Below, piece after piece: positions 5,559-64,000 of a stretch of DNA of 64,000 bases; position 1 is the stretch's first letter; every line of letters begins with the position of its first letter. Source of the DNA: a virus; the IMG/VR virus record IMGVR_UViG_3300031227_000023, positions 1-64,000 of that record. The stretch is one strand, 5' to 3'. A model generated the notes under the pieces. That model had not been told where the DNA came from and searched no databases. It was given only the letters and a program-made list of their open reading frames with translations. The position numbers and the translations under genes were made by a program.

Positions 5559-8087
5559 TTATTCACTTTCCACCTCGTCATCCGTAGATTTGGGCCCGAA
5601 ATATGCCATCAGTTCCCTTGTGCTCTGGCGCATACTCTCTACTTCCTCATCACTACCAACCCAGTCTTTGGATTCATCGTCTTTGCTGTCTTCTTTTGTT
5701 TCTGGATCATCCGTCAAGGTGTCGAAAATGCTCGCCTGATCTCCACTCGTTGACGCCTCTTGAAGATTGATACACGCACGGTCAAAATACGAATCCTTCA
5801 ATTCGATTCCAACAAACCGCCTTCCTTGCTTCAATGCCCCGTACCCTTCGGAACCGATCCCAGCGAACGGGGAGAAAACCAAGTCATTCTCGTTTGTCCA
5901 CATGTGAACCGCCCGCTCGATCACGTCGAGTTGCAACGGACACACATGCTTCTCGTCTTTCTCATCCCGTCCGAGTGCTCTGTTCAACACGTTACCCTGC
6001 CTGATGTCCATCCACACCGGACTCGCGTACCGTTGCCACACCTTGATGCTGTACCCGCGCTTGTCCATGAGTCGGCGTGGCACATCGTCATCCTCGACCA
6101 GTTGCGTATCAAATCCGATGCTGTGCTTGCGAGTTTCGACTGCGGAGTGCTTACTCGGCTCATCTTCTCCAACATAATGATCGAACCTTGCCGTATTGGA
6201 TTCGCCACACACGGGGGACACCACTTCGGCGCATCCGTCCAAGTCATCACGCTTACGGAAAACCACGAGGTGATCAGGGTTGCCTTGCCTGCTAATTGTT
6301 GAATCCTTGCACACCTGCTTATGGAGCAACCCGATTGTTTTTGTCCGTTGCATCTCGACAACCGGGTCTTTCCAGATAACAACCTCGGAATGGAACACAA
6401 ACCCGGCATCCCCGAATGCGCGGATAATGTCACCGCGAAAATCATACAGCCCTGTGAATCCCGTCTTGTACTTGAACAGCGGGATATTGATACAATGCAC
6501 AGCGACCAATCGGCCCGGACGGGTGACGCGCAAGAGTTCTGGAATCAGCATAGAGAAGTGCTCGAAGAACTTCTCATCGCTGGCGCTGTTCCCCATGTCC
6601 CTTGCGCTGTTGCTGTACACGTACAACTGGGAGAACGGCGGGGAAAAGATCGTGAAGTCAACCGAGTTATCCACGACCTTCTTTGTTTCCTCGATGCAGT
6701 CCCCTTTTATCATCTCCCACCCGTTGCCGGTGATAGTCTGCTGATCATAATCCAAGGCCAATCCCCTTTCTCCTGTGATTCCAAATTGGAAGTTTTCGTA
6801 CATACTGCGGCCCATCTCGTCATGCTTCGCGGCCTTGACCATTACGTTGTCGTATATCTGTTGTTCGGCCTCTGACATCACTGTATGGACGTGAACCTCA
6901 TGCTCTTGACCAAACCGCCAGTTACGGCGAACGGCTTGGTAATACGCCTCATACGAGTATGACATCCCGATGAAAGCGGCTTGATGACAGTGCTGCCAGT
7001 TCATGCCGAACCCAGCTATTTTGGGCTTTGTTATGAGCACCCGGAATTCACCGGCAACGAACCCCATCAACTTGGATTCTTTGATGTCCGGCCTGTCGTT
7101 TCCACGCACCTCGACAGCCTCTGGTATTGCCAACCGCAGCTCGTCGGCCTCGTAATTTGTATGGCACCACACCACCCACGATCCCGTTGAATCGTTAACG
7201 ATCCTTGCAACCTCTTGTGCCCTTGACGGAGCGGTCACTCGCATCACCTTGTGCACGGTTGTCGCTGATGCTGTCGGGCTGTAAAACATCTCGCCAATCT
7301 CAGAACCTAACGCTTCATAGTCGGCGCGAATGACGTGACGGTGCTGATGGAGTTTGGGCAAAACAAACCCATCGTCGGAGTGCCCAAGGTCGGAAGGCTG
7401 GCGAATGCACACCGCCCAACTGGAAACCCATGACCAAAACGGCTGCACCGCGTGGTGTTTGATTCTCCACACCGATGTCTGCCCGCTGTCATGTAAAAAC
7501 CACCGTGAGAGCATTTCGGTTCTGGGCATGATGCCAAGGAAATCGCTATGGTTCCCGAGTTCAACGTGATCGTTCGGCGCAGGCGTGGCCGTGCAACAAA
7601 GACGGAACGGAGTTTGATCAAAATAATCACAGAGCAACTGTTTTGTTTTGCCCATAAATGACTTCAGGATGCTCGATTCGTCGAGGACAACACCACCGAA
7701 CACGGACGGATCAAACTTCTCGATGCGCTCATAGTTTGTGATGTTGATCCCGGCCACAACTTCACTTCCATCACGAACCACTGAGCATTCGATTCCGAAC
7801 TTCTCGCCCTCGCGCTTCGTCTGTTGACTGACGGCCAGCGGTGCTAGGATCAAAACAGGCATCCCAGTGTATTCAACAACATGGCGAGCCCACTCAAGTT
7901 GCACAGGCGTCTTGCCAAGCCCACACTCCGCAAAAATCGCACACCGCCCCAACTTCAATGCCCACTGAACAATATCAACCTGGAACGGAAATAACATCTT
8001 GTTGATGCCATTCCTTTCAACATGGAATCCACTATCTTCCATGCGTTCCATTTTGTTCACCAAAAAATCTAAATACTTTTTGCCCAT
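5559..8087 (-). CDS. SNF2-type helicase fused to DNA methyltransferase, 842 aa
   Basis: The N-terminal half (about 30-430) is a superfamily-2 helicase: Walker A AECGLGKT (53-60), DEAD-like box LDESS, motif III CTATPAPND, and motif VI YYQAVRRNWRFGQ near 382-394. The C-terminal half (about 455-770) is a beta-class amino-methyltransferase: catalytic FSPPF (481-485) precedes the SAM-binding FSPFAGIGSEGYGAL (from 738), the order that defines the beta class. The acidic tail is disordered. The fusion suggests a DNA-translocating or remodelling methyltransferase that could protect phage DNA from restriction; the target base is unknown. ATG 8087 has a GGGGTGG site; ATG 8120 is an alternative. Codon choice looks different from the neighbours, suggesting recent acquisition. 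Confidence 0.85.
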   Translation of the reverse strand: MGKKYLDFLVNKMERMEDSGFHVERNGINKMLFPFQVDIVQWALKLGRCAIFAECGLGKTPVQLEWARHVVEYTGMPVLILAPLAVSQQTKREGEKFGIECSVVRDGSEVVAGINITNYERIEKFDPSVFGGVVLDESSILKSFMGKTKQLLCDYFDQTPFRLCCTATPAPNDHVELGNHSDFLGIMPRTEMLSRWFLHDSGQTSVWRIKHHAVQPFWSWVSSWAVCIRQPSDLGHSDDGFVLPKLHQHRHVIRADYEALGSEIGEMFYSPTASATTVHKVMRVTAPSRAQEVARIVNDSTGSWVVWCHTNYEADELRLAIPEAVEVRGNDRPDIKESKLMGFVAGEFRVLITKPKIAGFGMNWQHCHQAAFIGMSYSYEAYYQAVRRNWRFGQEHEVHVHTVMSEAEQQIYDNVMVKAAKHDEMGRSMYENFQFGITGERGLALDYDQQTITGNGWEMIKGDCIEETKKVVDNSVDFTIFSPPFSQLYVYSNSARDMGNSASDEKFFEHFSMLIPELLRVTRPGRLVAVHCINIPLFKYKTGFTGLYDFRGDIIRAFGDAGFVFHSEVVIWKDPVVEMQRTKTIGLLHKQVCKDSTISRQGNPDHLVVFRKRDDLDGCAEVVSPVCGESNTARFDHYVGEDEPSKHSAVETRKHSIGFDTQLVEDDDVPRRLMDKRGYSIKVWQRYASPVWMDIRQGNVLNRALGRDEKDEKHVCPLQLDVIERAVHMWTNENDLVFSPFAGIGSEGYGALKQGRRFVGIELKDSYFDRACINLQEASTSGDQASIFDTLTDDPETKEDSKDDESKDWVGSDEEVESMRQSTRELMAYFGPKSTDDEVESE

Positions 8088-8109
8088 CAAACCACCCCGT
8101 TTTTCAAAA

Positions 8110-8694
8110 TCAATCTTCATCCAGCGGCAACTCCTCTTGACCAATAGCAGGCATCGTGTCCCACCGTTTCAAGATCAGTTTCACGTCACCGGCCTTGGCC
8201 TTGCCCTGTTGAATCTTCTTGACCAACGCTGCCAACTCCTCATGCGCACCCGCAGGCACCAACGCAGGGTCAACCGTTGGCGTCCATTCTGCAATCAGGG
8301 CTTCCAAAAACTGCCCGGCCCAATCACTCTTCAGGCCATGCATGTGCTTGAACGTCTTGGCAGCGAAGTCAAACATCGGCTTGAAATCTTCAGGAACGTT
8401 CAGAGAGATTGTGACATACCCCTCTTTTTTCCCCTTAGCACCATCGGCAATTCCGCCTTCAACCCCGGTGGTTGGTGGCCACATCGCATCAGCAAAAAGC
8501 TGCTTCTGCATCCCTGCTTCCACAGCAATTTCAGCCACGCCCGCGTTCCGAATCTTCATCGTGTTGTCACAGCCTTCAGCCGCACAGCCATACAGCATGG
8601 TTCCACCCGCTGTTTTCCTGTACTCGAACACCATGCTGCCGCACCGGCACACTGGCATTTTACCAACAACAGTTTCCACTTTCTTTTTCGGCAT
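8110..8694 (-). CDS. Zinc-ribbon protein of unknown function, 194 aa
   Basis: The N-terminus carries a probable zinc ribbon: PVCRCGSMVF, then MLYGCAAEGCDNTMKI, giving a C-x-C...C-x4-C set within 35 residues. The rest is helical with charged segments (EDFKPMFDFAAKTFKHMHGLKSDWAGQFLEALIAEW) and an acidic end (EELPLDED). It lies between the primase-helicase and the helicase-methyltransferase in the replication operon, so a role with DNA or RNA is plausible. I cannot assign a family. The ATG has an AAGGAAGGAACG site. Confidence 0.7.
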   Translation of the reverse strand: MPKKKVETVVGKMPVCRCGSMVFEYRKTAGGTMLYGCAAEGCDNTMKIRNAGVAEIAVEAGMQKQLFADAMWPPTTGVEGGIADGAKGKKEGYVTISLNVPEDFKPMFDFAAKTFKHMHGLKSDWAGQFLEALIAEWTPTVDPALVPAGAHEELAALVKKIQQGKAKAGDVKLILKRWDTMPAIGQEELPLDED

Positions 8695-16810: not shown

Positions 16811-16838
16811 ATAAAAAGCGGAATGTTTCCACTCCGCT
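16811..16838 (-). terminator. Rho-independent terminator of the late operon
   Basis: On the minus strand AGCGGAGTG-GAAA-CATTCCGCT forms a 9-base stem (one G-T pair) closed by a GAAA tetraloop, followed directly by TTTTTATTTA. It lies 28 bases after the last gene of the lysis cassette. Confidence 0.85.
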
Positions 16839-16865: not shown

Positions 16866-17516
16866 TTACAGCCTAGCTGTCAGGCTTTCCCGATTCATCA
16901 CGTGGCACCCAACCAACTGGCCAAGCCTAACACCCATACAGCCCAACACATCCTTCATCACATCATCAACCGAATGAAACCCACCCCGCCTGCCCCAATT
17001 CCCAATATGCGCAAACGTCGATCCTTCACGCACCACGCACACATTGTGCCCCTTCACCTGCCATGGCCACCAACCTGTTGCCCAGATCACATTCATCACA
17101 CGTGCACCGAACCCACCCTTGACTGACCACGCGCACCACAACGCAGCATCATCACAATCCCAAGACACCCCGTACACATTAACCTTGCGAATCCCGCCCA
17201 ACCTGACCTGCCCGACCTGCCCCGGAACAAACGCCTGCCCCAACACCATGGCCGGGTCAAGCCCACTTGCAAGGATTGCTTCATTAATAAGGGCATCACC
17301 GCAGCACGGATGGTGAAACGCATCACCCAATTCACGCCACCCATCAGGATGGTATGCGATTTTTTCAACAAGATCAGCCGCACCCTTGGGAGTCAACGAA
17401 CCCTTCCACGTGGGGGAAGATTCTGCATGCTTCCGATCCCACAGCCATTGATACAGCTTGGACCACCACGCATAAAGACCGGAACGAACAAGCAGCCAAT
17501 ACCCGGCATGTTTCAT
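16866..17516 (-). CDS. Transglutaminase-like cysteine-protease-fold protein, 216 aa
   Basis: The centre reads YGVSWDCDDAALWCAW, then VKGHNVCVVREG, then HIGNWG. A Cys in a DC[DE]D-x-A motif, a His in GH-x-V and a final Asn/Asp is the catalytic order of the transglutaminase-like cysteine peptidase superfamily (BTLCP group). The N-terminus has an aromatic, amphipathic stretch (GYWLLVRSGLYAWWSKLYQWLW) that could touch the membrane. It is the last gene of the lysis block, so it could cut cell-wall peptides, but its substrate is unknown. ATG 17516 has a GGGGGAT site and the upstream stop is 13 bases away. Confidence 0.5.
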   Translation of the reverse strand: MKHAGYWLLVRSGLYAWWSKLYQWLWDRKHAESSPTWKGSLTPKGAADLVEKIAYHPDGWRELGDAFHHPCCGDALINEAILASGLDPAMVLGQAFVPGQVGQVRLGGIRKVNVYGVSWDCDDAALWCAWSVKGGFGARVMNVIWATGWWPWQVKGHNVCVVREGSTFAHIGNWGRRGGFHSVDDVMKDVLGCMGVRLGQLVGCHVMNRESLTARL

Positions 17517-17528
17517 CACATCCCCCAA

Positions 17529-18071
17529 TTATTTGAAATAAAATGCAAGTGCTGCCGACCCGGCAGCCACGGTGGTTACTATCAGCCCGCCAACCACGAT
17601 CCACACCCACGCAGGTGTGCGATATTCAACGACGGATTCACACTCACAAACCGCATACTGTTGGCAACCGTCAAGTTCTGCTTGACAGTTCCCCAAGCTC
17701 CCTTCACATGCAGCCCGCAATTTGTGTTCCAATCGTTCATCATCCTGCGTTTCTTTGTAATCATCAAAGCCAGCATCATTCAGGCAGAACCCAAACCCAT
17801 CAGGGCACTGCCCGGCTTCACCCACAGTCACCATGAACGGTGCCGGGTCAACATCATCATCAGGAAGCACTTCAATTTCCCGCACCGGGTCTTCAGCAGG
17901 TTCCGGCTGCCGGGGAACAATCACCGTGGCTTCAGCATGCCCGCCGCCCTGATCACTTGTTGCGCTTCTTACGTGCCGCAGACCCACGGAGCAACACGCT
18001 TGGATCACGAACACCATCACCATCAGCACGTGTGCGCAATTCGTCTTCCAACAATTCTGCCTTCTTTTCAT
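17529..18071 (-). CDS. Candidate unimolecular spanin (lipoprotein with C-terminal TM), 180 aa
   Basis: The N-terminus has a charged start (MKRRQNCWK), a hydrophobic core (VLMVMVFV) and a lipobox-like IQAC. The middle is acidic with many cysteines (CPDGFGFC...CEGSLGNCQAELDGCQQYAVCECE), and the C-terminus is one transmembrane helix (VWIVVGGLIVTTVAAGSAALAFYF). A lipidated N-terminus plus a C-terminal membrane helix is the layout of u-spanins such as T1 gp11, which fuse inner and outer membranes at lysis. The ATG at 18071 has an AAGGGTG site and lies inside the preceding gene in another frame, recalling Rz/Rz1. If the real start is further downstream, it would be only a tail-anchored protein. Confidence 0.5.
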   Translation of the reverse strand: MKRRQNCWKTNCAHVLMVMVFVIQACCSVGLRHVRSATSDQGGGHAEATVIVPRQPEPAEDPVREIEVLPDDDVDPAPFMVTVGEAGQCPDGFGFCLNDAGFDDYKETQDDERLEHKLRAACEGSLGNCQAELDGCQQYAVCECESVVEYRTPAWVWIVVGGLIVTTVAAGSAALAFYFK

Positions 18072-18321
18072 GGTACGCACCCTTATGGTCTTCAGGTTGG
18101 TCGTTCACTTTCACCACTGTCTGCTTCTTCACAACCACCGGATCTGACCGGAACAGGGAAGACAAGGCAAACACTGCCACGAAGGCAACAGCAATAAAGA
18201 AGATTGGGACCAACCACCACAGCTTGCCCTTTGACACCCGATCCCACGCCCCGCCTGCCTTATCCCCCAACTTTGCCATCATCCTTGCCAGCATCTTCTT
18301 CAACCTTTCCGGCTTCACCAT
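17953..18321 (-). CDS. Lysis-block membrane protein, i-spanin/holin-like, 122 aa
   Basis: A basic N-terminus (MVKPERLKKMLARMMAKLGDK) is followed by one strong transmembrane helix (LWWLVPIFFIAVAFVAVFALSSLF) and a charged outside domain (VVVKKQTVVKVNDQPEDHKGAYHEKKAELLEDELR) ending in a basic RGSAARKKRNK tail. The N-in/C-out topology and predicted helical domain fit an i-spanin (Rz-like). A holin-like role is also possible. Its last 119 bases overlap the next gene out of frame. The start has an AAGGTG site; ATG 18294 is an alternative. Confidence 0.5.
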   Translation of the reverse strand: MVKPERLKKMLARMMAKLGDKAGGAWDRVSKGKLWWLVPIFFIAVAFVAVFALSSLFRSDPVVVKKQTVVKVNDQPEDHKGAYHEKKAELLEDELRTRADGDGVRDPSVLLRGSAARKKRNK

Positions 18322-18619
18322 CAGCCCGCACCTTGTTCCGGTGCATTAAAAAATTCTTCACGTCACCACCGGTCATCACGATCACGAACAGCCCGAACAG
18401 TTCCACGCAGCGGTTCATGAATATGTCAAGCACTTCCACAACGAACCCATAACCGGCATCACTCTGCCGTTCCCACAGCCACACAAGGGGTGCGCTACCG
18501 ATCACCATCATGCACCACAGGCAAATGATAAATACAAACATCACCACCACGCGCATCCCGCGCAATGCCTGCGATAAGTCATCAATTTTGCGCAGCCTGC
18601 CTGTCAACCGTTTGGCCAT
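18260..18619 (-). CDS. Holin-like membrane protein, 119 aa
   Basis: Two hydrophobic segments, GMRVVVMFVFIICLWCMMVIGSAPLVWLW and a second around DIFMNRCVELFGLFVIVMTGG, are flanked by a basic N-terminus (MAKRLTGRLRKIDD) and a highly charged C-terminus (HRNKVRADGEAGKVEEDAGKDDGK). Small size, two membrane spans and a charged tail match class II holins. It directly follows the predicted endolysin, with start and stop overlapping as TAATG. Identification rests on layout and context, not on a family match. Confidence 0.55.
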   Translation of the reverse strand: MAKRLTGRLRKIDDLSQALRGMRVVVMFVFIICLWCMMVIGSAPLVWLWERQSDAGYGFVVEVLDIFMNRCVELFGLFVIVMTGGDVKNFLMHRNKVRADGEAGKVEEDAGKDDGKVGG

Positions 18620-19182
18620 TACTTCCACCGTGCCAGATAGATTCTGCGGGCCACGCCCGTTTCAACAACATATTTGACGGGGGTGAAGCACACACCACCC
18701 ATTGACTTGTGCGAACCCAACAGGGCAATCTTGATCTGTTCCTTGCCGCCACGCAACATGGTGCGTTCCACATCGTACACCACGCCTTGATGCCCGGACA
18801 CCTTCCCATTCCGCAGCCACCACCCTTGAAACAACATGCCCGGTGCCACGTGCTGCGCCGGTACATATTCCACAAGACCACGCTGCCAACACGCATACAC
18901 CACGCCATGCGTCCATGGATGCCCGGCAACCACGGCATCAAACAACGCATCATGGCCAGCCATTTCCCCTTGTGAAATATTGATTTCTTTTCTGAAGTCT
19001 TTGCCCAACGTGTTGCCCACGCGGGTGTCTTTGTCGATCACGTCCAATCGAGCCGCAACCACCATTTCCAAAAACTTGCTACAATCAATCTTGCGTGCAT
19101 CACGATCCCATGCCCCATACTTCCACCGGGGCATTGGAAACATTGCCGCCACTTTTTTTGCCAATGCCAAGTCAGCACTCAT
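18619..19182 (-). CDS. Putative endolysin, NlpC/P60-like, 187 aa
   Basis: The motif KIDCSKFLEMVVAARLD (Cys near residue 34) and the later SGHQGVVYDVE (His near 130), with GSHKSMGG beyond, follow the Cys-His-His order of NlpC/P60 cell-wall peptidases. In that family Cys begins a helix after a DCSG/DCSK turn and His lies on a strand in G-H-x-G. It would cleave peptidoglycan peptides at the end of infection. Placement immediately before a holin-like gene supports this. No signal peptide is visible, so holin-dependent release is expected. Confidence 0.6.
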   Translation of the reverse strand: MSADLALAKKVAAMFPMPRWKYGAWDRDARKIDCSKFLEMVVAARLDVIDKDTRVGNTLGKDFRKEINISQGEMAGHDALFDAVVAGHPWTHGVVYACWQRGLVEYVPAQHVAPGMLFQGWWLRNGKVSGHQGVVYDVERTMLRGGKEQIKIALLGSHKSMGGVCFTPVKYVVETGVARRIYLARWK

Positions 19183-19325: not shown

Positions 19326-19697
19326 TCAATCCTTTTTTTTCGCACGGGCACGTGGTTTTGCCGTAGCACTGGCTTCGATCTGATCCATCCTTGTGTCAAT
19401 CGCTGCACGCTTCTGTTCGCATGTATCGCCCCTGTCATCCATCCGTTGCAATTGCACCCGCAAATCTTTGGGCACACGTTCAGACAGCTTGGATTCCAAC
19501 AGGGTTAACCGTTGCTGGATTTTGGTGATGTCAGAACTGAACTTGGCAACCCACTTGTCAACCGTGGCACTGATTGCTTCAACAGCACGCTGCCTGTTTT
19601 TCTGCGTGAACAGGAACAGCGCAACGGCAACAGCAGCCAACGTGCTGGCAGCAGCCATCAGGATTTGAAAGGCTGTGGGTGTTGACGCTGCATCCAT
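19326..19697 (-). CDS. TM plus coiled-coil protein (DUF2730-like), 123 aa
   Basis: A membrane helix near the N-terminus (FQILMAAASTLAAVAVALFLF) is followed by a long predicted coiled coil (VDKWVAKFSSDITKIQQRLTLLESKLSERV...LQRMDDRGD) and a basic KPRARAKKKD end. This is the layout of DUF2730-type phage proteins, often found beside lysis genes, and it also resembles i-spanins. First gene of the lysis cassette, downstream of a strong candidate promoter. ATG 19697 has an AGGAAG site. Confidence 0.6.
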   Translation of the reverse strand: MDAASTPTAFQILMAAASTLAAVAVALFLFTQKNRQRAVEAISATVDKWVAKFSSDITKIQQRLTLLESKLSERVPKDLRVQLQRMDDRGDTCEQKRAAIDTRMDQIEASATAKPRARAKKKD

Positions 19698-19787: not shown

Positions 19788-21662
19788 TCACGGGCGGTAT
19801 TGGTCAGCAGCGGGCGTTAACAGCACACTGTTCCCGCCAGGCGAACTATCAACAACTTCATCCGTGGTGTTTGTGATTGTCACGCCAGCCGGATCCCCGA
19901 TTGTCCCGATAATTTTGTGGTCAGCCGTCACTGCCGGGAAAGCTGGAACTCCTGCTGCTGCGAGGCTTGTCATCCCTTGCGTATTCTCACCGAACCAAGA
20001 GTTACGCGCACCATCGCCCATTGAATATGTCGTTGTCCCTTGGTTCGCCCACGTCGTTCCATCTGTAGATTTTTTAAACCACAGATCATTGGCAAGATCC
20101 GTAAGAACGGCCCCGTCCGTAACAATCTTGACCCAGTTGTCGATATTATTAGAAAAGTTCATATCCATAATGACCCACGTTGGTGTGCTCGCTGGAAGCA
20201 CGCCGTTCAGCGTCAACGTGTAATCTGCCTCCACCGCTCCGTGAGAAGGGCTTGTGCCTATCAGAGTTTTGGAAGCCCAGTTTGGTGCGTCAGCCCCGTT
20301 GTCAGGCGCAACGTATACCTTCACAACAAGAGTTCCTGCAATTACCTTGTACCGGTATGCAATACTTGATAGATCACGAGCAGCCCCACTCGTATCTGTA
20401 AGCCGAATTGCAACATAACGCCCGGCGTATTTTGGAACCCAACTTGTTGCTACAGCATTTACGCGGATGACATCAAAGGTTCCAGCAACATCCGCTTCCG
20501 CACCGTCGTGAATAATTGGCACCCCATCCACAGTGATTGGGATCTCCACGTTGGCGACTTTTTGTTTTCCAACATTTGCAGCTGTGACCGTCAACGCCAC
20601 ATCTTTTGGATTTCTGAAATATGCGTTGGTACTCTTGTTCCATAACCTGTGCCTGCCAGTTTGCACTTCCAGGTCAGGTACATCGGACGCACGCAGGTCA
20701 GCACCTTCCATCAATACAAAATCAGGATCTGTTCCCCAGTCATCAGGACCAGACGCGCCGGAACTCATTGCGTCAATGGTTTCCAGCGCAATCTGCGGAG
20801 TAACGTCAGTAGAACTCAAAATTCCACCAAACCCAGACGCATCCACGTCAATCGCACTTGCCGGATGCTGTGACGGGGTTGCCCTGCCAGACAATCCCCC
20901 ATGATCATTCGATGTAGCATGCGGGTTCGCAGCATCATTCTCGTGCGTTGTCAGATTGCTTTGAACAGCAGCAGCAGCACCGGCCTGATCAGCACCGGTT
21001 TGTGCATAGCCAACCTGATGCGGATTGCCTTCATCCCCGGTATGCCCAATAAGTTGACCAGTTGAAGCAGACGAGCTGTGCGGGTTTCCCAACCCTTCAT
21101 GCGTGCCAAGATTAGATTGCACCCCCGCAGCAGACCCAACAGGATCAGCACCGGCCTGACCAGCCGTCACACCGTGAGGATTCCCCTCGTCTTCCGTGTG
21201 TGTTGTCAAACTCGACTGATCAGCCTTGTTCGGCACGGCATCAACCAACGCCACCTGTTGGTGTGTCAAGTGCTGCCGATCACCGTCACCACCACCACTG
21301 ATCCCCATGGTGTCATCATGGAAACTTGACGCACTTTCCTTGCCCCACCGGCCCGGATCTTCAGCCGCAATACTGTTGGGCTTCACGATCAAGTCGCCAT
21401 CATCAGTCCCGGTGCTTGCAGCATTGAATCTGTAATTGGAATCTTCAGTGCCCACATACCTGAAGTGGTTCTGTGTCAGATCGTCACTGACAGCACGCAG
21501 CGCAGCCACATCAGCAACCGGATCATCCTTTTCCCCAACCAACTGCCTGCCGCCAACCGCAGGGTTCGTTACAGGGTCAAGTTCGGGGTTTGCTGCATCC
21601 AACGCTTGCCGAATCCTAGGCTTCAGCACTGGCCTATTTCTTGGTTGGTCACGATCTGCCAT
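19788..21662 (-). CDS. Tail fibre protein with NPH-type repeats, 624 aa
   Basis: Residues about 130-265 hold at least four copies of a motif like HT-x-D-E-G-N-P-H-x-V plus QSNLxTHE (e.g. THTEDEGNPHGVTAGQAGADP, GHTGDEGNPHQVGYAQTGAD). These are the trimeric shaft repeats known from phage side fibres, where His residues can bind metal along the axis. The N-terminus probably attaches to the baseplate. The C-terminal 330 residues are beta-rich (AYFRNPKDVALTVTAANVGKQKVANVEIPITVDG...) and probably bind the host receptor. It is the last structural gene before the lysis cassette, the usual place for a receptor-binding fibre. No chaperone gene is evident. Confidence 0.75.
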   Translation of the reverse strand: MADRDQPRNRPVLKPRIRQALDAANPELDPVTNPAVGGRQLVGEKDDPVADVAALRAVSDDLTQNHFRYVGTEDSNYRFNAASTGTDDGDLIVKPNSIAAEDPGRWGKESASSFHDDTMGISGGGDGDRQHLTHQQVALVDAVPNKADQSSLTTHTEDEGNPHGVTAGQAGADPVGSAAGVQSNLGTHEGLGNPHSSSASTGQLIGHTGDEGNPHQVGYAQTGADQAGAAAAVQSNLTTHENDAANPHATSNDHGGLSGRATPSQHPASAIDVDASGFGGILSSTDVTPQIALETIDAMSSGASGPDDWGTDPDFVLMEGADLRASDVPDLEVQTGRHRLWNKSTNAYFRNPKDVALTVTAANVGKQKVANVEIPITVDGVPIIHDGAEADVAGTFDVIRVNAVATSWVPKYAGRYVAIRLTDTSGAARDLSSIAYRYKVIAGTLVVKVYVAPDNGADAPNWASKTLIGTSPSHGAVEADYTLTLNGVLPASTPTWVIMDMNFSNNIDNWVKIVTDGAVLTDLANDLWFKKSTDGTTWANQGTTTYSMGDGARNSWFGENTQGMTSLAAAGVPAFPAVTADHKIIGTIGDPAGVTITNTTDEVVDSSPGGNSVLLTPAADQYRP

Positions 21663-48652: not shown

Positions 48653-49597
48653 TTATTTTCGATCAGCAACAACAAACAATTCAACGCCATCACTGCCAAG
48701 GTGCAGCACTTCTTTCTGTGTCACATTCTTCAATACTTCTTCCAACAAATCCTTCCCAATAGCACCACCGACAAACAAAAATTTTGTTTCCTGAATCATG
48801 CAATTCAACCGGTTCCTTGCCAGTTCAATTTCACCACTGCCAAGCACCCGATCCAAAACGCCAACACAGACAGCAACTACAGCCCTGCGCGGGATTCCAT
48901 TATCTTCAAACACATCACCATGCCTGTATGATACAAGCGAATCAAAGACCCAATTTAAATGCTCTGCCACAGCCCGCTTCTGCGGATCTTTTTCAATTCC
49001 AATCACACTAAAGCCAATCTCTTGCAGCATCCTGCTTTTCCCACCAGTGCTCGACCCAACGTCATACGCACGCCCCGCACGCAAATTGTTTTCGTTGCAG
49101 AAACGATGAACATGTTGAAACCACCCGGACGAATTCACAACATCCCAATCGCCAAAGGCAGGATGATCAATCTGTTCCCGCAGTACATGCCCGTTCTGAA
49201 ATTGCACCAACCTGTCTTCCAAATCAACCCACATCTGATTCACTTGCTTGACTTCAACCGGAACAGGAAGCCCGCAAACAATGAACCGGCCACTTCTATG
49301 ATGCCCGTCGAGCATTTCATATTGCCCATTCCCGTGCAAAATAGCTGGTGCAGCAAATTCCGAATCTATCTCTTCGCCTTGAAGCGCACGCAAGGCTTCA
49401 ATTCTTCCCACCGCTTCATCTTCTGTCATCCCGTATGCACCACGTATCGCCTTGAAATACGTTGTTGATCGGTAATCACCACCACTTTCCAATGCCCGGT
49501 AAACATCACACACGGCAAGATTTGCAGCATTCCCCCGCCTTGCTCCGTCAATGCTTAACCACCGTACGGGAACTTGATGAATGATGCGCTCTGTCAT
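48653..49597 (-). CDS. ParB-like plus SAM-methyltransferase protein 1, 314 aa
   Basis: The N-terminal half has a ParB-like patch, APAILHGNGQYEMLDGHHRSGRFIVCGLPVPVEV (near 82-116). The C-terminal half has a class I methyltransferase glycine-rich loop, GRAYDVGSSTGGKSRMLQEIGFSVIGIEKDPQK (near 173-205). Residues downstream (RAVVAVCVGVLDRVLGSGEIELARNRLNCMI) complete the Rossmann sheet. A ParB-like domain can bind nucleotides or modify DNA, so the pair may act on nucleic acid or sugar nucleotides. A tandem paralogue follows the same layout, and the next gene upstream is a giant glycosyltransferase, so a modification pathway is likely. Confidence 0.65.
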   Translation of the reverse strand: MTERIIHQVPVRWLSIDGARRGNAANLAVCDVYRALESGGDYRSTTYFKAIRGAYGMTEDEAVGRIEALRALQGEEIDSEFAAPAILHGNGQYEMLDGHHRSGRFIVCGLPVPVEVKQVNQMWVDLEDRLVQFQNGHVLREQIDHPAFGDWDVVNSSGWFQHVHRFCNENNLRAGRAYDVGSSTGGKSRMLQEIGFSVIGIEKDPQKRAVAEHLNWVFDSLVSYRHGDVFEDNGIPRRAVVAVCVGVLDRVLGSGEIELARNRLNCMIQETKFLFVGGAIGKDLLEEVLKNVTQKEVLHLGSDGVELFVVADRK

Positions 49598-50631
49598 TTC
49601 TTTAATATTCCAGGCTTGGCCAACGCAAAAACATCACGCTTTTCCGTCTGCCCGATGTGAACAACTTCCCTGTTGGTCACTTCACCAAGCCACTTCATGT
49701 ATGGTTCTGTCTCAAAGGAAACAATCGACTTGTTCAAGGAAACGTCACCAACAGCACCACCATCAGTGATGAATACCCGTGTTTCCTGCACCATGCGCTT
49801 CAGCCGGTCAATCACAAGCTGATGATACCCTTGGCCAAGAAACCGGTGCAGCACACTGACACACACAGTCAACGCTGCCCCACCCCCGTGTGGTGGCACG
49901 CCTGTTTCATTGGTCAAGTCGCCACTCCGGTACGATACAAGCGAATCAAAAATCCAATTGCAATACGATGCCACAGCACGCGCATTGTCATCAATTTCCA
50001 CGCCGATCACGCTGAAACCAAGCCCGCGCAACATCCTGCTGATGTGCCCCGTGCAAGATCCAAGATCCCACGCCGTGCCCGCGCTGCCTTCATTCACACT
50101 AAACATCTCTTGATAAACAAGCCAATCCTTGATCAATTCCGTGCGCCTGCCTGACCTGTCAATTTCCCAATCCCTGAATTCAGGATGTTCAATCGGCTGA
50201 TACAGCAACCGCCTTCCACTATAAATTCTTTCCAACCGATCCTTGAACGCAAGCCACATCGGGTCAACCTGATTCAAATCAACGGGAATTTCAGTGTGCC
50301 CATCAACGATCATCTTGCAAACCCGGTGATGGGCATCACGAAGTTCATAGACACCATTGGCGTGCAGGATCACAGGCGCAGCAAAGTCTTCCCATATTTC
50401 AGATTCAAACAAACCCCGCAGCTTGTTGATCCGCGCCCGTGCCTGTTCAGGCGACATGCCCAACCCATCAGTGATCACTTTGAAATATTCCGAACCTTCC
50501 CCGGATTCGCCACGCTTCATTGCCCGGAACAAACCACAAGCCGCCAACTCTGTTGGCACCGTCCCCAAGGCACCTTCAACACGCAGCCACGGAACGGGAA
50601 CAAGATATTTTTCGCCCATATCAATCACCAT
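49594..50631 (-). CDS. ParB-like plus SAM-methyltransferase protein 2, 345 aa
   Basis: Paralogue of the previous gene, about 40% alike by eye. ParB-like patch APVILHANGVYELRDAHHRVCKMIVDGHTEIPVDL; SAM loop GTAWDLGSCTGHISRMLRGLGFSVIGVEIDDNAR; shared NWIFDSLVSYRSGD. The DGHHR motif of protein 1 is DAHHR here, so the two may have diverged in activity. ATG 50631 has an AGGAAAAAC site and overlaps the end of the glycosyltransferase gene by seven bases, implying coupled translation of all three genes. Confidence 0.65.
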   Translation of the reverse strand: MVIDMGEKYLVPVPWLRVEGALGTVPTELAACGLFRAMKRGESGEGSEYFKVITDGLGMSPEQARARINKLRGLFESEIWEDFAAPVILHANGVYELRDAHHRVCKMIVDGHTEIPVDLNQVDPMWLAFKDRLERIYSGRRLLYQPIEHPEFRDWEIDRSGRRTELIKDWLVYQEMFSVNEGSAGTAWDLGSCTGHISRMLRGLGFSVIGVEIDDNARAVASYCNWIFDSLVSYRSGDLTNETGVPPHGGGAALTVCVSVLHRFLGQGYHQLVIDRLKRMVQETRVFITDGGAVGDVSLNKSIVSFETEPYMKWLGEVTNREVVHIGQTEKRDVFALAKPGILKK

Positions 50632-53600
50632 GTTTTTCCTGTGAAGTGCCGAACCAATGCCCACCCTGGAAGATTATCGTATTCACTAAACCGTTTTTCT
50701 TGATCAACAACATCAGCAGCCATGCCAGCAATCGCACCACTCAGGGCATACCAATCATACACATCCCCTGTACGCCTGAACCGTTCCAATATCTTCCCAA
50801 CTGCCCCATGCACCCACGTCATTGATTCAGGCCGGAAACGGGCTTTCTGCGCCAAGCTGAAATAACGCTCATAAATTCCAAGCAACGTCCACTTCGGGCT
50901 GTGCTGCCCAAGTATCCCACAATGGATCGGGTCAACATGGTGCAGAACGTTTGCAACAGCGACCCTTCCCCCATCCTCTTGCAACTTTTTCATTTGCCCA
51001 ACGTCGCAAGACAGGCCATCTGTGAACGTGTATTTTCTGATCAAGTCTGCATCATACGCCTTCACCCCAAAAATTGCCCGCCCAAGATGCACATCCCACA
51101 ACCCCGCGCACGCAATGGCAACATCATCTGTTTCGTTGATCATCCGGAACAGCGTGGCAATGGCGTTGGGATACAACACCATGTCATCATCAACTTGCAC
51201 AAAATACTTTGTTTTGCACCGATCAATCATCTGCTGAAAGGCAGCACTCATTGGTTCAATATTCTTGATTTCCCTGACAGCGAACCGCGCCGTTTGCCCA
51301 TGCAAAGCTTCCACCACATCGCTGTAATTAATCCCTCCCGTTGTCACAACGAACACTGTAAGCATTTCAGTCAAGTCATACGACCGGGCAAAATCAGGAA
51401 TCAAACAGTGCTTCCGAACAGCCTTGAACGAGACCGGGGCAGGGGCAGGCGTGGAAGGAACAGGCACCATCGCACCTTCACCACTTTTCGCTTTTCCTTT
51501 TTCCGTTTCCACAACCCGGCACAATTCACGCAACGACTCTGCCCTAATTGACCAATCCCACGCACGGACCATTTCCGCACGGTTCGCACGACCCATTGCA
51601 GGAAGCAAGTGCCGGTTGTCACGCAACCGAACCAACTCCTTCTGCACCGCTTCAACCGTCCTATCCACAATGATTGCACCGCTGGAAAAAACTTCCGGGG
51701 CAATGCCGGTGCGCGTGCTTATCCACGCCCGCCCGCAGGCTGCCGCTTCAAGCAACATATTGGGGGTGCCTTCAATCCATTCCTGCGAACAGCACAGCAC
51801 CACATCAACGCCTGCGTAAAACTCAGGCATTTCTTCAATCGGACGCCACCTGTCTTTCCTGTCTGCCATCACAAGTTCAACACCATCAACGCCATCAATT
51901 GCAGCATGCAACAATGGCATGCCCTTCACATCAGCCCAACGCCAATCAGTATTTGTGGACCCTGCCCACCCCACACGCAGCGGCGTGTCATTCAAATCGG
52001 TGCGGTATTCACTGAACCGGAACAGGCCGGTATCAACCCCATCTTGACAGAATCCAAACTGATGTTCACCAACCGCATACCCAATTTCAGAACTGACAAT
52101 CCGAAACAGATTGAAGTTGGCAAACATATGATAAGGGGTGAACTTCAAGCCTGCCACCAACTGTTCGCGTTCCCACGTTCCCACACCCCACGTGGCTGCA
52201 TCATAGTGCGCAATGATCACAGCGGTGTGTGGACCCAACTTGTCTTTGATGTCTGCAAGTGCTGCATACCACATCAGAACAACAATATCATAATCAAGCA
52301 CCGCAACATCGGGCAATTCAAGCAGTGACAGCCTGTCAACAATAAATTCATCAGACAGGAACCGGGCTTGCTGTTGTGCTATTCTGGAAAATGCCCAATT
52401 AGGACGGTCATACACGATCAGCACACGCTTTTTCCCGCCACCTGAACAACCACCCGTGGAAGCACAAGCAACAGGGGATTCAACTTCCCCTGCACAATCA
52501 CATTCATTTCCAACCACGCCACCCCCGTCAACTGCCCCGATCTGCACCGCAGGCTTGCCGCTGTGGCCGTCACTGCCATCAGCAGGAACATCTGGCAGCA
52601 CATCTTCACACTTGGCCTTCACGGGCAAAATACGAAGGTTCAAATTCCTCTTGGCCAGTGCTGTTCCAAACTTTCCAACCTTCAACCACGCTTCGCCACG
52701 TCCGATCTGTTCCACTTCATCCATCAGCCGGAACCATTCACCAAACCCACCCTTGTACGTTTTCACTGCGAACGGATACCCCGCCAACCCATGCATGGAA
52801 GGCACGTGGAATTTTCCAGCCCGTGCTTTGCACCCCAACGTCACCACGGGGCAACCCAACCGGATCACATCCAACACCGTGCTGCCCCATGACTCTTCCA
52901 CCAACGGGTTCACAAACCCCGTGGCCTGTGACAGCACGTTGCCGATATTTTCCACATCAGCAGCAGCGTGGAACCGGAACTGCGCAGTGCCCGCCCCACG
53001 GAACAGTTCAGGCTGCCCACCGGAACCGTACACCCACAGCAATGAATCCGGGTGCTTAGGCGCATAGTGCTTCTTCCAGCTATTCACGAACCGGACCACC
53101 TGCGAATTGATCACCCCCGCGTACACCCACAAGTGCTTACCACTCCGGACCAATTGCCGGGCTTCAACATCAGCCTGCCCAACAGCCAACCTGCGAACAG
53201 GAAGCACGCACGGCTTCACATCCATCCATGGGTAACGCTTTTCCAATTGGCCAGCATATGGGGTGAACGGGGTGAATACCCTTGCGCCTTCCAGCGCACT
53301 GCGCACATCGTTCCGTTCAAACCAACCATCAGGCATCAGCGGAATGATCACGGTGTGATCAGGCCACGGCACCAACTCGTCATTGACAGCGGGAAACACG
53401 GTCAAGTTCCCATCGAACCCACCCCACACAGTATCAGCATCAGACGCCACACCCGGCCTGCACCAACGCTTGGCACCGTGCCGCACCGGCAACACGTCCT
53501 GCGCCAACAGATCATCAGCAACGGCTTCCACCACTTCCACATGATCAGGGTTTGGATACACGCCACGATCCGCAGCGAACCTTCCCGTGACAACAAACTT

Positions 53601-54515
53601 GCGCCGCTCCGCATCACCGAACAGATCACGGTAATGCAGCACTCTTTCTTCCCATCGAAACGATTCAACACTCGACCGGGCAACATGCGCCAAAGTTTCA
53701 AGTTTCACCCGATCTGTCACCAAAGAAGAAATGGCGTCTGCAATCGAGCCAACAGACCGGCCAACAAAGATCCCGTTATAATTCGGCACAATCACTTCAG
53801 GCATAATCCCCACCTGCGTGGTAATCACAGGCTTGCCGGATGCAAGTGATTCCAACGGTGGGTTGGGGGTGCCTTCCCCTTCAGCACTTGCGCACACATA
53901 ACAATTAATTTTCTTGTAAAATGTTTCACACATCTGATCATGCGGAATGATCACCCCGCTGTGGCTGTCTGCCACCACCAACTTCACGCCCGTCTTCTTC
54001 ACCGCCTGCCGGATCAGATCAAAGCCCTTAATATTTCCACCGGCCTGACTGTTGCCCGCCCACCCCACAGTGAAATCCTGCGGCAGCGGTGTCTGATGGA
54101 ACTTGTCAAAATCAACCCCATCCATGGTGGTCACAATGCGCAGCCGCATCCTGTCTTCATGATCCAACCCATCCCACAGCCGCTTCCTGATCCTGTCATT
54201 GGCCACGGCAAACCCATCAGCACGCTTCACGATCAAGTTCCAAAACACAGGATTGTCAGGCCAACTGAACCCATCGTACAGGCCAATGTAAACCTTGTCC
54301 GCAATCAGCCCGCGCTGATCCAACCACGGGAAGCAAGCCCACCACAGGCAAAACACAGCGTCAAAACGCTTCTGTTCCAATTGCGGAAACTCCCCAAACG
54401 GAATGGCGGTGAATTTGTAAAGGTTGGCCAGATGGAACATGATCTGCTGCGCTATTCGATCAAACGCCCAATCACGTTGTTCCATCGTGATCAGCATAGT
54501 TGGCTTTTCGGTCAT
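50625..54515 (-). CDS. Giant four-module glycosyltransferase, 1296 aa
   Basis: Modules: (1) residues 1-300, GT-B fold with TPNPPLESLASGKPVITTQVG (near 216-236); (2) 305-635, GT-B-like with GFVNPLVEESWGSTVLDVIRLGCPVVTLG (533-561); (3) 695-1005, GT-B with EGTPNMLLEAAACGRAWISTRTG (915-937); (4) 1050-1250, GT-A fold with FVQVDDDM (DDD at 1109-1111). Modules 1 and 3 share [MV]LI...WAF[DS]RIAQQ near their starts, so the gene grew by duplication. GT-B modules carry the EX7E-type acceptor/donor loops. It would add several sugars in sequence, either to DNA bases, to virion proteins or to surface glycans. With two methyltransferase-like genes it forms a cassette inserted among virion genes. The ATG has an AGGAG site eight bases upstream. 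Confidence 0.8.
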   Translation of the reverse strand: MTEKPTMLITMEQRDWAFDRIAQQIMFHLANLYKFTAIPFGEFPQLEQKRFDAVFCLWWACFPWLDQRGLIADKVYIGLYDGFSWPDNPVFWNLIVKRADGFAVANDRIRKRLWDGLDHEDRMRLRIVTTMDGVDFDKFHQTPLPQDFTVGWAGNSQAGGNIKGFDLIRQAVKKTGVKLVVADSHSGVIIPHDQMCETFYKKINCYVCASAEGEGTPNPPLESLASGKPVITTQVGIMPEVIVPNYNGIFVGRSVGSIADAISSLVTDRVKLETLAHVARSSVESFRWEERVLHYRDLFGDAERRKFVVTGRFAADRGVYPNPDHVEVVEAVADDLLAQDVLPVRHGAKRWCRPGVASDADTVWGGFDGNLTVFPAVNDELVPWPDHTVIIPLMPDGWFERNDVRSALEGARVFTPFTPYAGQLEKRYPWMDVKPCVLPVRRLAVGQADVEARQLVRSGKHLWVYAGVINSQVVRFVNSWKKHYAPKHPDSLLWVYGSGGQPELFRGAGTAQFRFHAAADVENIGNVLSQATGFVNPLVEESWGSTVLDVIRLGCPVVTLGCKARAGKFHVPSMHGLAGYPFAVKTYKGGFGEWFRLMDEVEQIGRGEAWLKVGKFGTALAKRNLNLRILPVKAKCEDVLPDVPADGSDGHSGKPAVQIGAVDGGGVVGNECDCAGEVESPVACASTGGCSGGGKKRVLIVYDRPNWAFSRIAQQQARFLSDEFIVDRLSLLELPDVAVLDYDIVVLMWYAALADIKDKLGPHTAVIIAHYDAATWGVGTWEREQLVAGLKFTPYHMFANFNLFRIVSSEIGYAVGEHQFGFCQDGVDTGLFRFSEYRTDLNDTPLRVGWAGSTNTDWRWADVKGMPLLHAAIDGVDGVELVMADRKDRWRPIEEMPEFYAGVDVVLCCSQEWIEGTPNMLLEAAACGRAWISTRTGIAPEVFSSGAIIVDRTVEAVQKELVRLRDNRHLLPAMGRANRAEMVRAWDWSIRAESLRELCRVVETEKGKAKSGEGAMVPVPSTPAPAPVSFKAVRKHCLIPDFARSYDLTEMLTVFVVTTGGINYSDVVEALHGQTARFAVREIKNIEPMSAAFQQMIDRCKTKYFVQVDDDMVLYPNAIATLFRMINETDDVAIACAGLWDVHLGRAIFGVKAYDADLIRKYTFTDGLSCDVGQMKKLQEDGGRVAVANVLHHVDPIHCGILGQHSPKWTLLGIYERYFSLAQKARFRPESMTWVHGAVGKILERFRRTGDVYDWYALSGAIAGMAADVVDQEKRFSEYDNLPGWALVRHFTGKTW

Positions 54516-54560
54516 TGAAGCCACTCCTGTTATTCTGTCTTATTTCGCCAACTGCGTATC

Positions 54561-61300: not shown

Positions 61301-64000
61301 TTACTTGTACGCGCCGGTGTTAATTGATCCCAGCACACGCGTGAAATGGTCAACGTCTTGCATCACCTTCCCCGCAGACTTCCCATCAAAATATTCCATG
61401 CCCATGGATGTCACTTCTGTTGCATCCAAATCCTTCACGCTTCCACCACGTGGCGTTTTCACAGTCCCTTCCCTGTAATACAACCTACCAACATAGTGGT
61501 CTGTGAATTCAGGATTACCCCGTTCGACTTTCACAACAATTTCATTCAACTTATATGCTTTGTTTCTTGTCAAATAACGCAGCGGGGTTTCCCCTCCTAC
61601 AAATCCATCAGCATCTACTTTGGCGCGCTGCCACAGGAACCACTGCCCATTCTTCAGTGAATCAGAATTGAGTTCATCAAAATGATGTCCATATTCGTGC
61701 AGGAACTTGCGCCGTACTTCTTCCTTTGACCACTCCGCATATTTCCGAACACGCACGTTTTTTGTTCCAATTGAAATAAACGCACGTTCATCAACCCCCT
61801 GGCTTGCTATTGATTTTGCAGACTCATAGAACGCCCCGCTTTTTGTTGGATCAACATCAACCCTGACAGCAGGCAACCGGCCACGAACAACACCACGACC
61901 GTACCGCGTCACATAATCATAAATCGCACACCCTTCTTCAATCCCATCACGAACAGGCTTTGGAATTTTTGACCATTGTGCATAAGCCCCGGCATCATCC
62001 AAAAACTGTGCTTTGATCCTGCCAAACAGCCGGGCTTGTTCAGGTATCGTTTCAACATACGCAAGGGATTTTTCTGCAATCTCACCAGCAACCTTGTGGT
62101 GCGCGACACTATCTAGTGCAAGAGTTCCGGAGGATTCCTTTCTAATCAAATCCTTCAATACCCACTCCCCACGCTTTCTGATCTGATCCACCCTGCCACT
62201 TTTCCTTGCCGACCCCCAACGCGCATCAACAGCCGGTGGCCTTGTACTTGACAACGGGCCAAGCACTTCATCACCACGCAAGCCTTCTTCAGGAACCAAC
62301 TGCCATGGCTGTTCATGCGGCTTCAACGGTGCAGGTACAGCAGGCTTGGGCACAGCAGCGGCAGTCCTGGCAGCAGCCGCACCCCCTGCCCATGGACCCA
62401 ACCCACCGGGCACCGCAGTCTGTATGGCCTTCTGATTGTAAATAACAGTGGTCCTGCATAGCGGGTGGTACGGTGGCAAACTCATGCCCAAATCACGCAT
62501 TTCCTTCACGGTGGAATACTGCGAAGCATACTTGCCCGCATCCCATGTTCCCGCACCCGGCTTTGTGACAGTCATGATACTGTTGAACTGCCCCTGTTTA
62601 TTCATCACCCCCCAGTCAGCACCCCGCCTGCGCACCCATGGCATTTCAAATTTAATATCTTCAGGATCAGCCAAGTTGTCAGTTGACGTTTGGTGTTCAT
62701 GCGCAACCTCAACATCTATTACTTTACCATGGATGTACCGGCAATTATGAACAACAACCCCTTCTGCAATGTATGTTGGGTCATCTTCCACTTCAAGGTT
62801 GTACACGTAACATGCACGCCGCACCTTGCGAACGGCAACAACCTTTTCTAGCCTAGTGCCCCTGCAATACTCTTCAACACTACGTTCTCCGGATTCCCTT
62901 GATTCAATTGCTCGCCCGTAATCCTGATCAGTTTCCACCCCATGCCTGCAATTGCTTGTTCTTTTCTTTCCGTCGCATCCTCCCTGAACCCTTCCCTGTG
63001 CCAATACTCCCCGTCCACCTCGATTGCGAGACCGTGCTCCGGTAGAAAGAAATCTACATTGAATCGGTCGACGGGCTTCTCTAGCTCGTAATTGATTCGA
63101 TTCTTTTCCAACACTTCCGCAACGATTTCTTCCAACCCCGTTGCCCCCTTCCCAATCAAAAGGCATCTGCGCGAACAATGCTGCCTCTTGACCACTTCCG
63201 ATTTCTTGATAACAAACTTTTTCCCGCACTCCTCGCACGTTATCGTTTCCCTTTGATCCTTCCACCGGCATGCCCGTGAACACGTAGTGCGGGTTTTCCC
63301 GGAAAAAAATTCCACTGGCTTTATTCTGAACTCCCCCCCACATACAACGCACCGCTTCACCAACAATGCCGGATTCAACCCCTTCCTTCCAGCTTCCACC
63401 CTGCACTGATCCGAACAATGCTTCATCTGCCCCCGTTTCACATAACACTGCCTTGCCGTGAATGCCTTGCCGCACCATTGACAAACCATTTCCACATTGT
63501 TCATCCGATATTTGTTGTAACAATCCGTGCCGCAATACTGAGCCCTGTTCCCCACCGCTTGAAACGTCTTTCCGCAACCCTTGCATTTCTTCTCTATAGA
63601 CAAGGCTGTCTCCTTTCCGCAATTCTCCAATAGGTCTCCATCCATCTGCGGTAAGGATACGATGTTTTTTTGTTGCAATCAAATGATTGCCGGACTGGAG
63701 TTGCACTTCAATCAACTCTTCATCAACAAATCTTTTCGATACAGCCAACACGTGCCTCAACACCCCTGATCCCGTCACGACAACATCACCCGCATCAATG
63801 CTGTCTATACGTTTTTCCCCTAACTCTGTTTTTACTTTTGTTTCGCCAGAAAAACACCATTCTGTGGTTCGTTCATCCATCACCGCATAGGCAATTACCT
63901 CTGTAATGCCCGCTTCCATGAAGCCGTGCAACTGCGCCCGTGAACGGGAACGCGCAACCAAGTTGTGCGCCACCACCGTCCAATAATTCTTCATCTGCTG
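61301..64000 (-). CDS. Minor head protein (Mu F/SPP1 gp7 type) with intein and zincin domain, partial
   Basis: The gene runs off the right edge. Extein core: ...YAVMDERTTEWC | CRYIHGKVIDVEVAH...PPYHPLCRTTVIYN, the D-x-RT-x3-C...HG and HP-x-CR landmarks of the SPP1 gp7/Mu F family. The intein interrupts just before the conserved Cys at the DERTTEW/CRYIHG junction. After the head domain (about residue 570) a second domain has FLHEYGHHFDEL (766-770) and later EVTSMGMEYF, an HExxH zinc-protease motif with a possible third ligand Glu. A protease on an ejected head protein could digest host targets after entry. The spliced protein would lack the 371 intein residues. Confidence 0.78.
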   Translation of the reverse strand, partial: QQMKNYWTVVAHNLVARSRSRAQLHGFMEAGITEVIAYAVMDERTTEWCFSGETKVKTELGEKRIDSIDAGDVVVTGSGVLRHVLAVSKRFVDEELIEVQLQSGNHLIATKKHRILTADGWRPIGELRKGDSLVYREEMQGLRKDVSSGGEQGSVLRHGLLQQISDEQCGNGLSMVRQGIHGKAVLCETGADEALFGSVQGGSWKEGVESGIVGEAVRCMWGGVQNKASGIFFRENPHYVFTGMPVEGSKGNDNVRGVREKVCYQEIGSGQEAALFAQMPFDWEGGNGVGRNRCGSVGKESNQLRAREARRPIQCRFLSTGARSRNRGGRGVLAQGRVQGGCDGKKRTSNCRHGVETDQDYGRAIESRESGERSVEEYCRGTRLEKVVAVRKVRRACYVYNLEVEDDPTYIAEGVVVHNCRYIHGKVIDVEVAHEHQTSTDNLADPEDIKFEMPWVRRRGADWGVMNKQGQFNSIMTVTKPGAGTWDAGKYASQYSTVKEMRDLGMSLPPYHPLCRTTVIYNQKAIQTAVPGGLGPWAGGAAAARTAAAVPKPAVPAPLKPHEQPWQLVPEEGLRGDEVLGPLSSTRPPAVDARWGSARKSGRVDQIRKRGEWVLKDLIRKESSGTLALDSVAHHKVAGEIAEKSLAYVETIPEQARLFGRIKAQFLDDAGAYAQWSKIPKPVRDGIEEGCAIYDYVTRYGRGVVRGRLPAVRVDVDPTKSGAFYESAKSIASQGVDERAFISIGTKNVRVRKYAEWSKEEVRRKFLHEYGHHFDELNSDSLKNGQWFLWQRAKVDADGFVGGETPLRYLTRNKAYKLNEIVVKVERGNPEFTDHYVGRLYYREGTVKTPRGGSVKDLDATEVTSMGMEYFDGKSAGKVMQDVDHFTRVLGSINTGAYK
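62744..63856 (-). other. Intein, 371 codons, inserted in minor head gene
   Basis: Starts at Cys (TGT 63854-63856) with CFSGETKVKTELGEKRIDSIDAGD (block A). Next is SGNHLIATKKHRILTADGWRPIGEL (block B, T-x-x-H type) near residue 102. It ends with ACYVYNLEVEDDPTYIAEGVVVHN (blocks F/G) before extein Cys. Splicing residues are Cys1, His in the B block, terminal His-Asn and +1 Cys, so all core residues are present. The N part covers about 90 residues and the C part about 35. The 250 residues between have the low-complexity look of a shadow frame yet contain no stop, because they overlie the endonuclease gene. Confidence 0.88.
62848..63603 (-). CDS. Nested homing endonuclease in the intein, +1 frame, 251 aa
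   Basis: Runs in the +1 frame relative to the intein. Start TTG 63603 has a perfect AAAGGAG (63610-63616) six bases upstream; the frame stays open further upstream to ATG 63645 and 63678, but those have poor sites. Four zinc-finger-like CxxC...C-x3-4-C units fill residues 5-140 (CKGCGKTF...CGTDCYN; CQWCGKAF...CSDQC; CVVCGGEF...CSRAC; CEECGKKF...CSRRC). The C-terminal domain has NVDFFLPEHGLAIEVDGEYWH...ATERKEQAIAGMGWKLIRI, close to the EDxHD/Vsr-like nuclease fold. It would cut intein-free alleles of the head gene, allowing the intein to spread. It fits exactly between the two splicing halves and stops at 62848. Confidence 0.82.
   Translation of the reverse strand: MSIEKKCKGCGKTFQAVGNRAQYCGTDCYNKYRMNNVEMVCQWCGKAFTARQCYVKRGQMKHCSDQCRVEAGRKGLNPALLVKRCVVCGGEFRIKPVEFFSGKTRTTCSRACRWKDQRETITCEECGKKFVIKKSEVVKRQHCSRRCLLIGKGATGLEEIVAEVLEKNRINYELEKPVDRFNVDFFLPEHGLAIEVDGEYWHREGFREDATERKEQAIAGMGWKLIRITGEQLNQGNPENVVLKSIAGALG

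Follow-up and report, generated by a model that had tools for sequence, protein, structure and literature searches.

Spanins disrupt the outer membrane and are known as two-component systems and as unimolecular proteins (u-spanins), the latter recognized by an N-terminal lipobox and a C-terminal transmembrane (TM) helix in one protein. The locus described here raises the question of which of these architectures, if either, it encodes. In the 64,000-nt stretch of phage DNA that we analyzed (the window), a 180-residue ORF with the layout of a u-spanin (P0001, 17529..18071, minus strand) begins out of frame inside a gene for a membrane protein that resembles an inner-membrane spanin subunit, or i-spanin (P0002, 17953..18321, minus strand). 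A preliminary description had labeled P0001 a candidate u-spanin with an i-spanin-like neighbor. Here, we confirm that this layout is real, and consider what kind of lysis machinery it may represent.

P0001 combines a lipobox signal, a proline- and acid-rich stretch, a cysteine-rich segment, and a C-terminal TM helix. Its N-terminus reads MKRRQNCWKTNCAHVLMVMVFVIQAC followed directly by a cysteine, residue 26; residues 1-25 form a basic n-region and a hydrophobic core leading into what is, by pattern match, the lipobox VIQAC with Cys26. The PROSITE PS00013 lipoprotein rule restricts positions -4 to -1 while permitting Gln at -2, places the cysteine within residues 15-35, calls for Lys or Arg among the first seven residues, and bars Asp, Glu, Arg and Lys from the six residues preceding the box; P0001 conforms to this rule in full. 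The residue after Cys26 is Cys27 rather than Asp, so that P0001 shows no sign of the E. coli-type signal for retention in the inner membrane. The predicted periplasmic part, from the lipid cysteine to the C-terminal helix, comprises about 127 residues. Within it, residues ~40-85 hold 7 prolines, 12 acidic and 2 basic residues, followed by a segment with seven cysteines (89, 96, 122, 129, 136, 142 and 144) that, depending on whether Cys27 is counted, brings the periplasmic total to 7-8. A spacing of seven recurs among these cysteines, in the trio 122/129/136 and the pair 89/96 (three pairs; permutation P 0.0018, for a criterion chosen post hoc). AlphaFold2 (AF2), run without homologues, gives a mean pLDDT of 49.5 and reaches moderate confidence only in the N-terminal and C-terminal helices. 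The latter spans residues ~154-179 at pLDDT ~70-82, with a hydropathy of 2.05 over residues 158-176; the periplasmic part contains no strands in this single-sequence model, at a pLDDT below 50. The coordinates and features of the original account (180 residues, IQAC near the start, a C-terminal TM) are thus reproduced.

The overlap between the two genes (17953..18071, minus strand) spans 119 nt and is out of frame (+1). The P0001 start at ATG 18071, the AAGGG upstream of it, and the position of both within the P0002 gene in a different frame had all been noted earlier, and we find each of them. The AAGGG lies about 8 nt from the ATG, in a region that is RBS-like in sequence and anti-SD energy (18072..18090, minus strand). 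That energy is -5.1 kcal/mol; 22 phage genes average -5.3, random positions -3.3, and later in-frame starts of P0001 score 0.1 to -3.5. This site supports the start at ATG 18071, though it falls short of proof. A start beyond 17953, which the preliminary description had named as evidence against its reading, is disfavored because the later sites are weaker and the lipoprotein signal would be lost. In 20,000 codon resamplings of P0002 that kept its amino acids and the phage codon usage, the P0001 frame stays open over the overlap in 58%, and an open frame that also encodes a PS00013 lipobox together with a strong hydrophobic core appears in 0.27% (criteria set post hoc). Thus, an open frame comes cheaply at this position, but the signal does not. 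Codon usage in the overlap scores -0.15 bits per codon in the P0001 frame versus +0.31 in the P0002 frame; since it favors P0002, we argue for translation of the P0001 N-terminus from the signal and ribosome-binding site, not from codons. Scanning the stop-defined ORFs of the window (64 kb of a record of 89,915 bases) identifies a PS00013-type lipobox in ten, two of which also possess a C-terminal TM. The second of these, 70 aa long, runs antisense to a real gene, and P0001 is the sole gene-size lipobox protein at a coding position in the window.

The overlapped partner, P0002, is a 122-aa protein with one TM (37-55). A net charge of +7 before the TM predicts an N-in/C-out (type II) orientation, in agreement with the i-spanin-like character first assigned to it, and its outer part of 66 residues contains no cysteine. 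Both genes sit in an operon of a contractile-tailed phage, identified as such by sheath, baseplate, tape measure and capsid matches, in which all genes relevant here lie on the minus strand. A tail-fibre-like gene (19788-21662) precedes the cassette, followed by genes for a 123-aa protein with an N-terminal TM and a coiled-coil-like region (19326..19697), a very small ORF, a 187-aa candidate endolysin (18619..19182), a 119-aa holin-like protein with two predicted TMs (24-42 and 63-81) and a charged C-terminus (18260..18619), P0002, P0001, and a 216-aa protein (16866..17516), before a terminator-like hairpin with a T-run (16815..16838) closes the operon. The 187-aa protein carries NlpC/P60-like motifs (DCSKFLEMVV and GHQGVVYD), a motif-level reading; its AF2 model is poor, and a fold search with that model is meaningless. 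The 216-aa protein, with cysteine-peptidase/transglutaminase-like motifs (DCDDAALWC and GHNVCVV), is possibly a second wall-acting enzyme. Genes in the cassette overlap tightly, by 1 nt, by 62 nt (between the holin-like gene and P0002) and by 119 nt, and this arrangement, together with the gene order, fits a lysis cassette ending a late operon. Pfam, PHROGs and NCBIfam return no usable match to any cassette protein, P0002 included, so the terms endolysin and holin are used here as readings of motifs and TM counts.

Homologue searches yielded no relatives for the cassette genes. P0001 has no homologue in IMG/VR, INPHARED, PLSDB, GTDB genomes or PDB sequences, and two DNA patterns derived from it match nothing in IMG/VR. 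Against phage records, the only similarities to P0001 at E<=1 are two weak matches (E 0.007 and 0.05), both of which we dropped; the better one is antisense to an annotated gene. Neither P0002 nor the 187-aa endolysin-like protein has a homologue in IMG/VR or phage records, the 216-aa protein has none in IMG/VR, and P0003 has none among phage records. The host is approached through capsid and sheath, which offer only distant relatives with mixed hosts: capsid relatives at ~40% identity infect both Gram-negative and Gram-positive bacteria, and the sheath has its best matches in Streptomyces phages and in genomes of Planctomycetota. The contractile prophage-like region initially identified as best, in a Planctomycetota MAG, shows no lysis cassette in its ORF list. 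In a further viral record, IMGVR_UViG_3300005918_002006, the 672-aa tail protein of the window recurs at 100% identity, but the record ends before the lysis genes.

Elsewhere in the window, several other genes on the minus strand drew attention. The gene at 61301-63994 encodes an intein (Intein_splicing E 5.5e-12, Hint_2 E 9.4e-9, residues ~47-417), and a 276-aa ORF at 62848-63678 (MTES_1575 E 4.3e-8, DUF559 E 2.4e-6) is nested in the intein region in a different frame; we read this pair as an intein with an out-of-frame nested restriction-like endonuclease gene. At 5559-8144, a weakly matching helicase-like region (SNF2/Helicase_C) and an N6/N4 DNA methylase (E 8e-14) are fused in a single ORF. 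A 1299-aa protein with several glycosyltransferase domains is encoded at 50625-54524, amid head and tail genes, and the adjacent genes at 48653-49597 and 49594-50664 encode similar proteins that, by eye, appear to be ParB-like/methyltransferase duplicates.

We propose that P0001 and P0002 are spanin genes that form an overlapped, Rz/Rz1-like pair in which the lipoprotein subunit has an added C-terminal TM anchor, a reading to which we give somewhat less than an even chance of being correct. Topology points to a u-spanin, gene architecture and cysteine content to an overlapped two-component spanin; a two-component overlapped pair whose lipoprotein carries an inner-membrane anchor is the most economical account. 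Several features favor it: the lipobox, hydrophobic core, n-region charge and C-terminal TM, with a signal of this quality arising so seldom by chance; a type II partner overlapped in the +1 register; the standing of P0001 as the only such lipobox protein in the window, given that phage genomes seldom encode lipoproteins; and a position near the end of a late operon, where tail-fibre, endolysin-like and holin-like genes come first and the hairpin follows. Overlap and cysteines, on which we base the two-component reading, are usual among two-component spanins, of which 228 of 528 are overlapped and 507 of 528 contain at least one cysteine (PMC6139136). The proposal is weakened by the lack of cassette homologues in the searches above, with endolysin and holin assigned from motif and TM count, by capsid and sheath relatives that include phages of Gram-positive hosts, and by a cysteine number above the reported o-spanin maximum of 4 (PMC6139136), in a protein whose TM has no counterpart among the o-spanin types described in the literature searched. 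In this pair, P0002 would serve as the inner-membrane, i-spanin-like subunit, while P0001 would be sorted to the outer membrane as a lipoprotein in the manner of an o-spanin. Its C-terminal helix would insert in the inner membrane, so that P0001 alone spans the envelope as a u-spanin does, and its periplasmic cysteines may crosslink it into dimers or oligomers. Once holin and endolysin had breached the inner membrane and wall, collapse of the tethers would fuse the two membranes.

Three other explanations have to be weighed against an overlapped pair. P0001 may be a true u-spanin acting alone. In that case P0002 would be no spanin subunit but a small protein with some other role in lysis or the membrane, and the overlap at its 3' end would be fortuitous. 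The u-spanin label fits in that P0001 has both defining features, its ~127 periplasmic residues would suffice to bridge the periplasm, and u-spanin genes are located in lysis cassettes (PMC6139136). We nonetheless consider a lone u-spanin rather unlikely: periplasmic cysteines are found in none of the 58 catalogued u-spanins (PMC6139136), a regularity and not a formal criterion, against 7-8 in P0001, similarity to phage records is limited to the two weak matches, and P0002 shows the predicted topology of an i-spanin. The cysteines weaken the assignment of P0001 to the u-spanin class, while the topology, out-of-frame start and i-spanin-like neighbor given in the preliminary description all stand. 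They lower the claim to a u-spanin, not the claim to spanin-like action.

The remaining two explanations question lipidation and the spanin function itself. If the N-terminal segment stays uncleaved as a TM, for which its length and hydrophobicity are adequate, or is an SPase I signal, P0001 would be an inner-membrane protein (two-TM or type I) with a Cys-rich periplasmic loop, for example an antiholin-like lysis regulator or an exclusion protein. Loops of this kind are well suited to disulfide-regulated proteins. Gln at -2 also lies outside the strict spanin lipobox consensus, [LVI][ASTVI][GAS]C, yet spanin lipoboxes can deviate from that consensus and remain functional, as proven for AWAC (PMC6139136). 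With Gln at -2 allowed under PS00013 and the cysteine position and basic start both in agreement, we judge a non-lipidated P0001 unlikely. Finally, since a spanin disrupts an outer membrane, our proposal fails if the host has none, and the genes could also serve virion or envelope functions apart from lysis. The Streptomyces-phage and Planctomycetota sheath matches and the motif-level assignment of endolysin and holin lean toward such an explanation, but a lipobox and C-terminal TM in one protein beside endolysin-like and holin-like genes are hard to account for otherwise, and the single-domain 187-aa enzyme appears to match endolysins of Gram-negative phages. Overall, we regard the absence of a spanin system as improbable.

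Returning to the overlapped pair, a more specific possibility, which we consider doubtful though worth stating, is that the locus encodes a hybrid spanin, in which the lipoprotein of an overlapped two-component pair acquired both an inner-membrane anchor at its C-terminus and a Cys-rich stalk. Two-component and unimolecular spanins have been concluded to have evolved independently, and a route from o-spanin to u-spanin through gain of a TM has been called speculative (PMC6139136). A hybrid spanin, if real, would be an o-spanin/u-spanin intermediate of the kind proposed there. If it is functional, its union of two-component architecture and cysteines with unimolecular topology would bear on the independent-evolution conclusion, and the two spanin classes could coexist in one cassette instead of being mutually exclusive.

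P0001 and P0002 share features with each class of known spanin. Like the unimolecular spanins T1 gp11 and the PB1 family, P0001 combines a lipobox, in its case identified by pattern, with a C-terminal TM, and lies in a lysis-type gene cluster; unlike them, it is Cys-rich and overlapped by a preceding i-spanin-like gene, with no sequence similarity found. The periplasmic domains of u-spanins are described as beta-rich (PMC6139136); the P0001 model shows no strands, at a quality too low to bear on the comparison. In the embedded spanins of phage lambda, Rz/Rz1, the start of the lipoprotein gene likewise lies within a type II gene in another frame, but P0001 runs 424 nt past the end of P0002 and possesses a second membrane anchor. 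In the spanin literature searched, outside which most subscription papers lie, we found no description of an o-spanin with a C-terminal TM or of a mixed arrangement. Compared to the overlapped two-component spanins (such as P2 LysB/LysC, T5 and DFL12phi1), P0001 stands apart in its C-terminal TM, where lipid-only anchoring is the rule, and in its 7-8 cysteines, again with no sequence similarity found. In these systems, as predicted here, a lipoprotein gene overlaps a type II gene in another frame and extends past the end of that gene, and the lipoprotein carries periplasmic cysteines. The overlap of 119 nt is close to the 116 bp of the DFL12phi1 pair, and its +1 register is that of P2 LysB/LysC.
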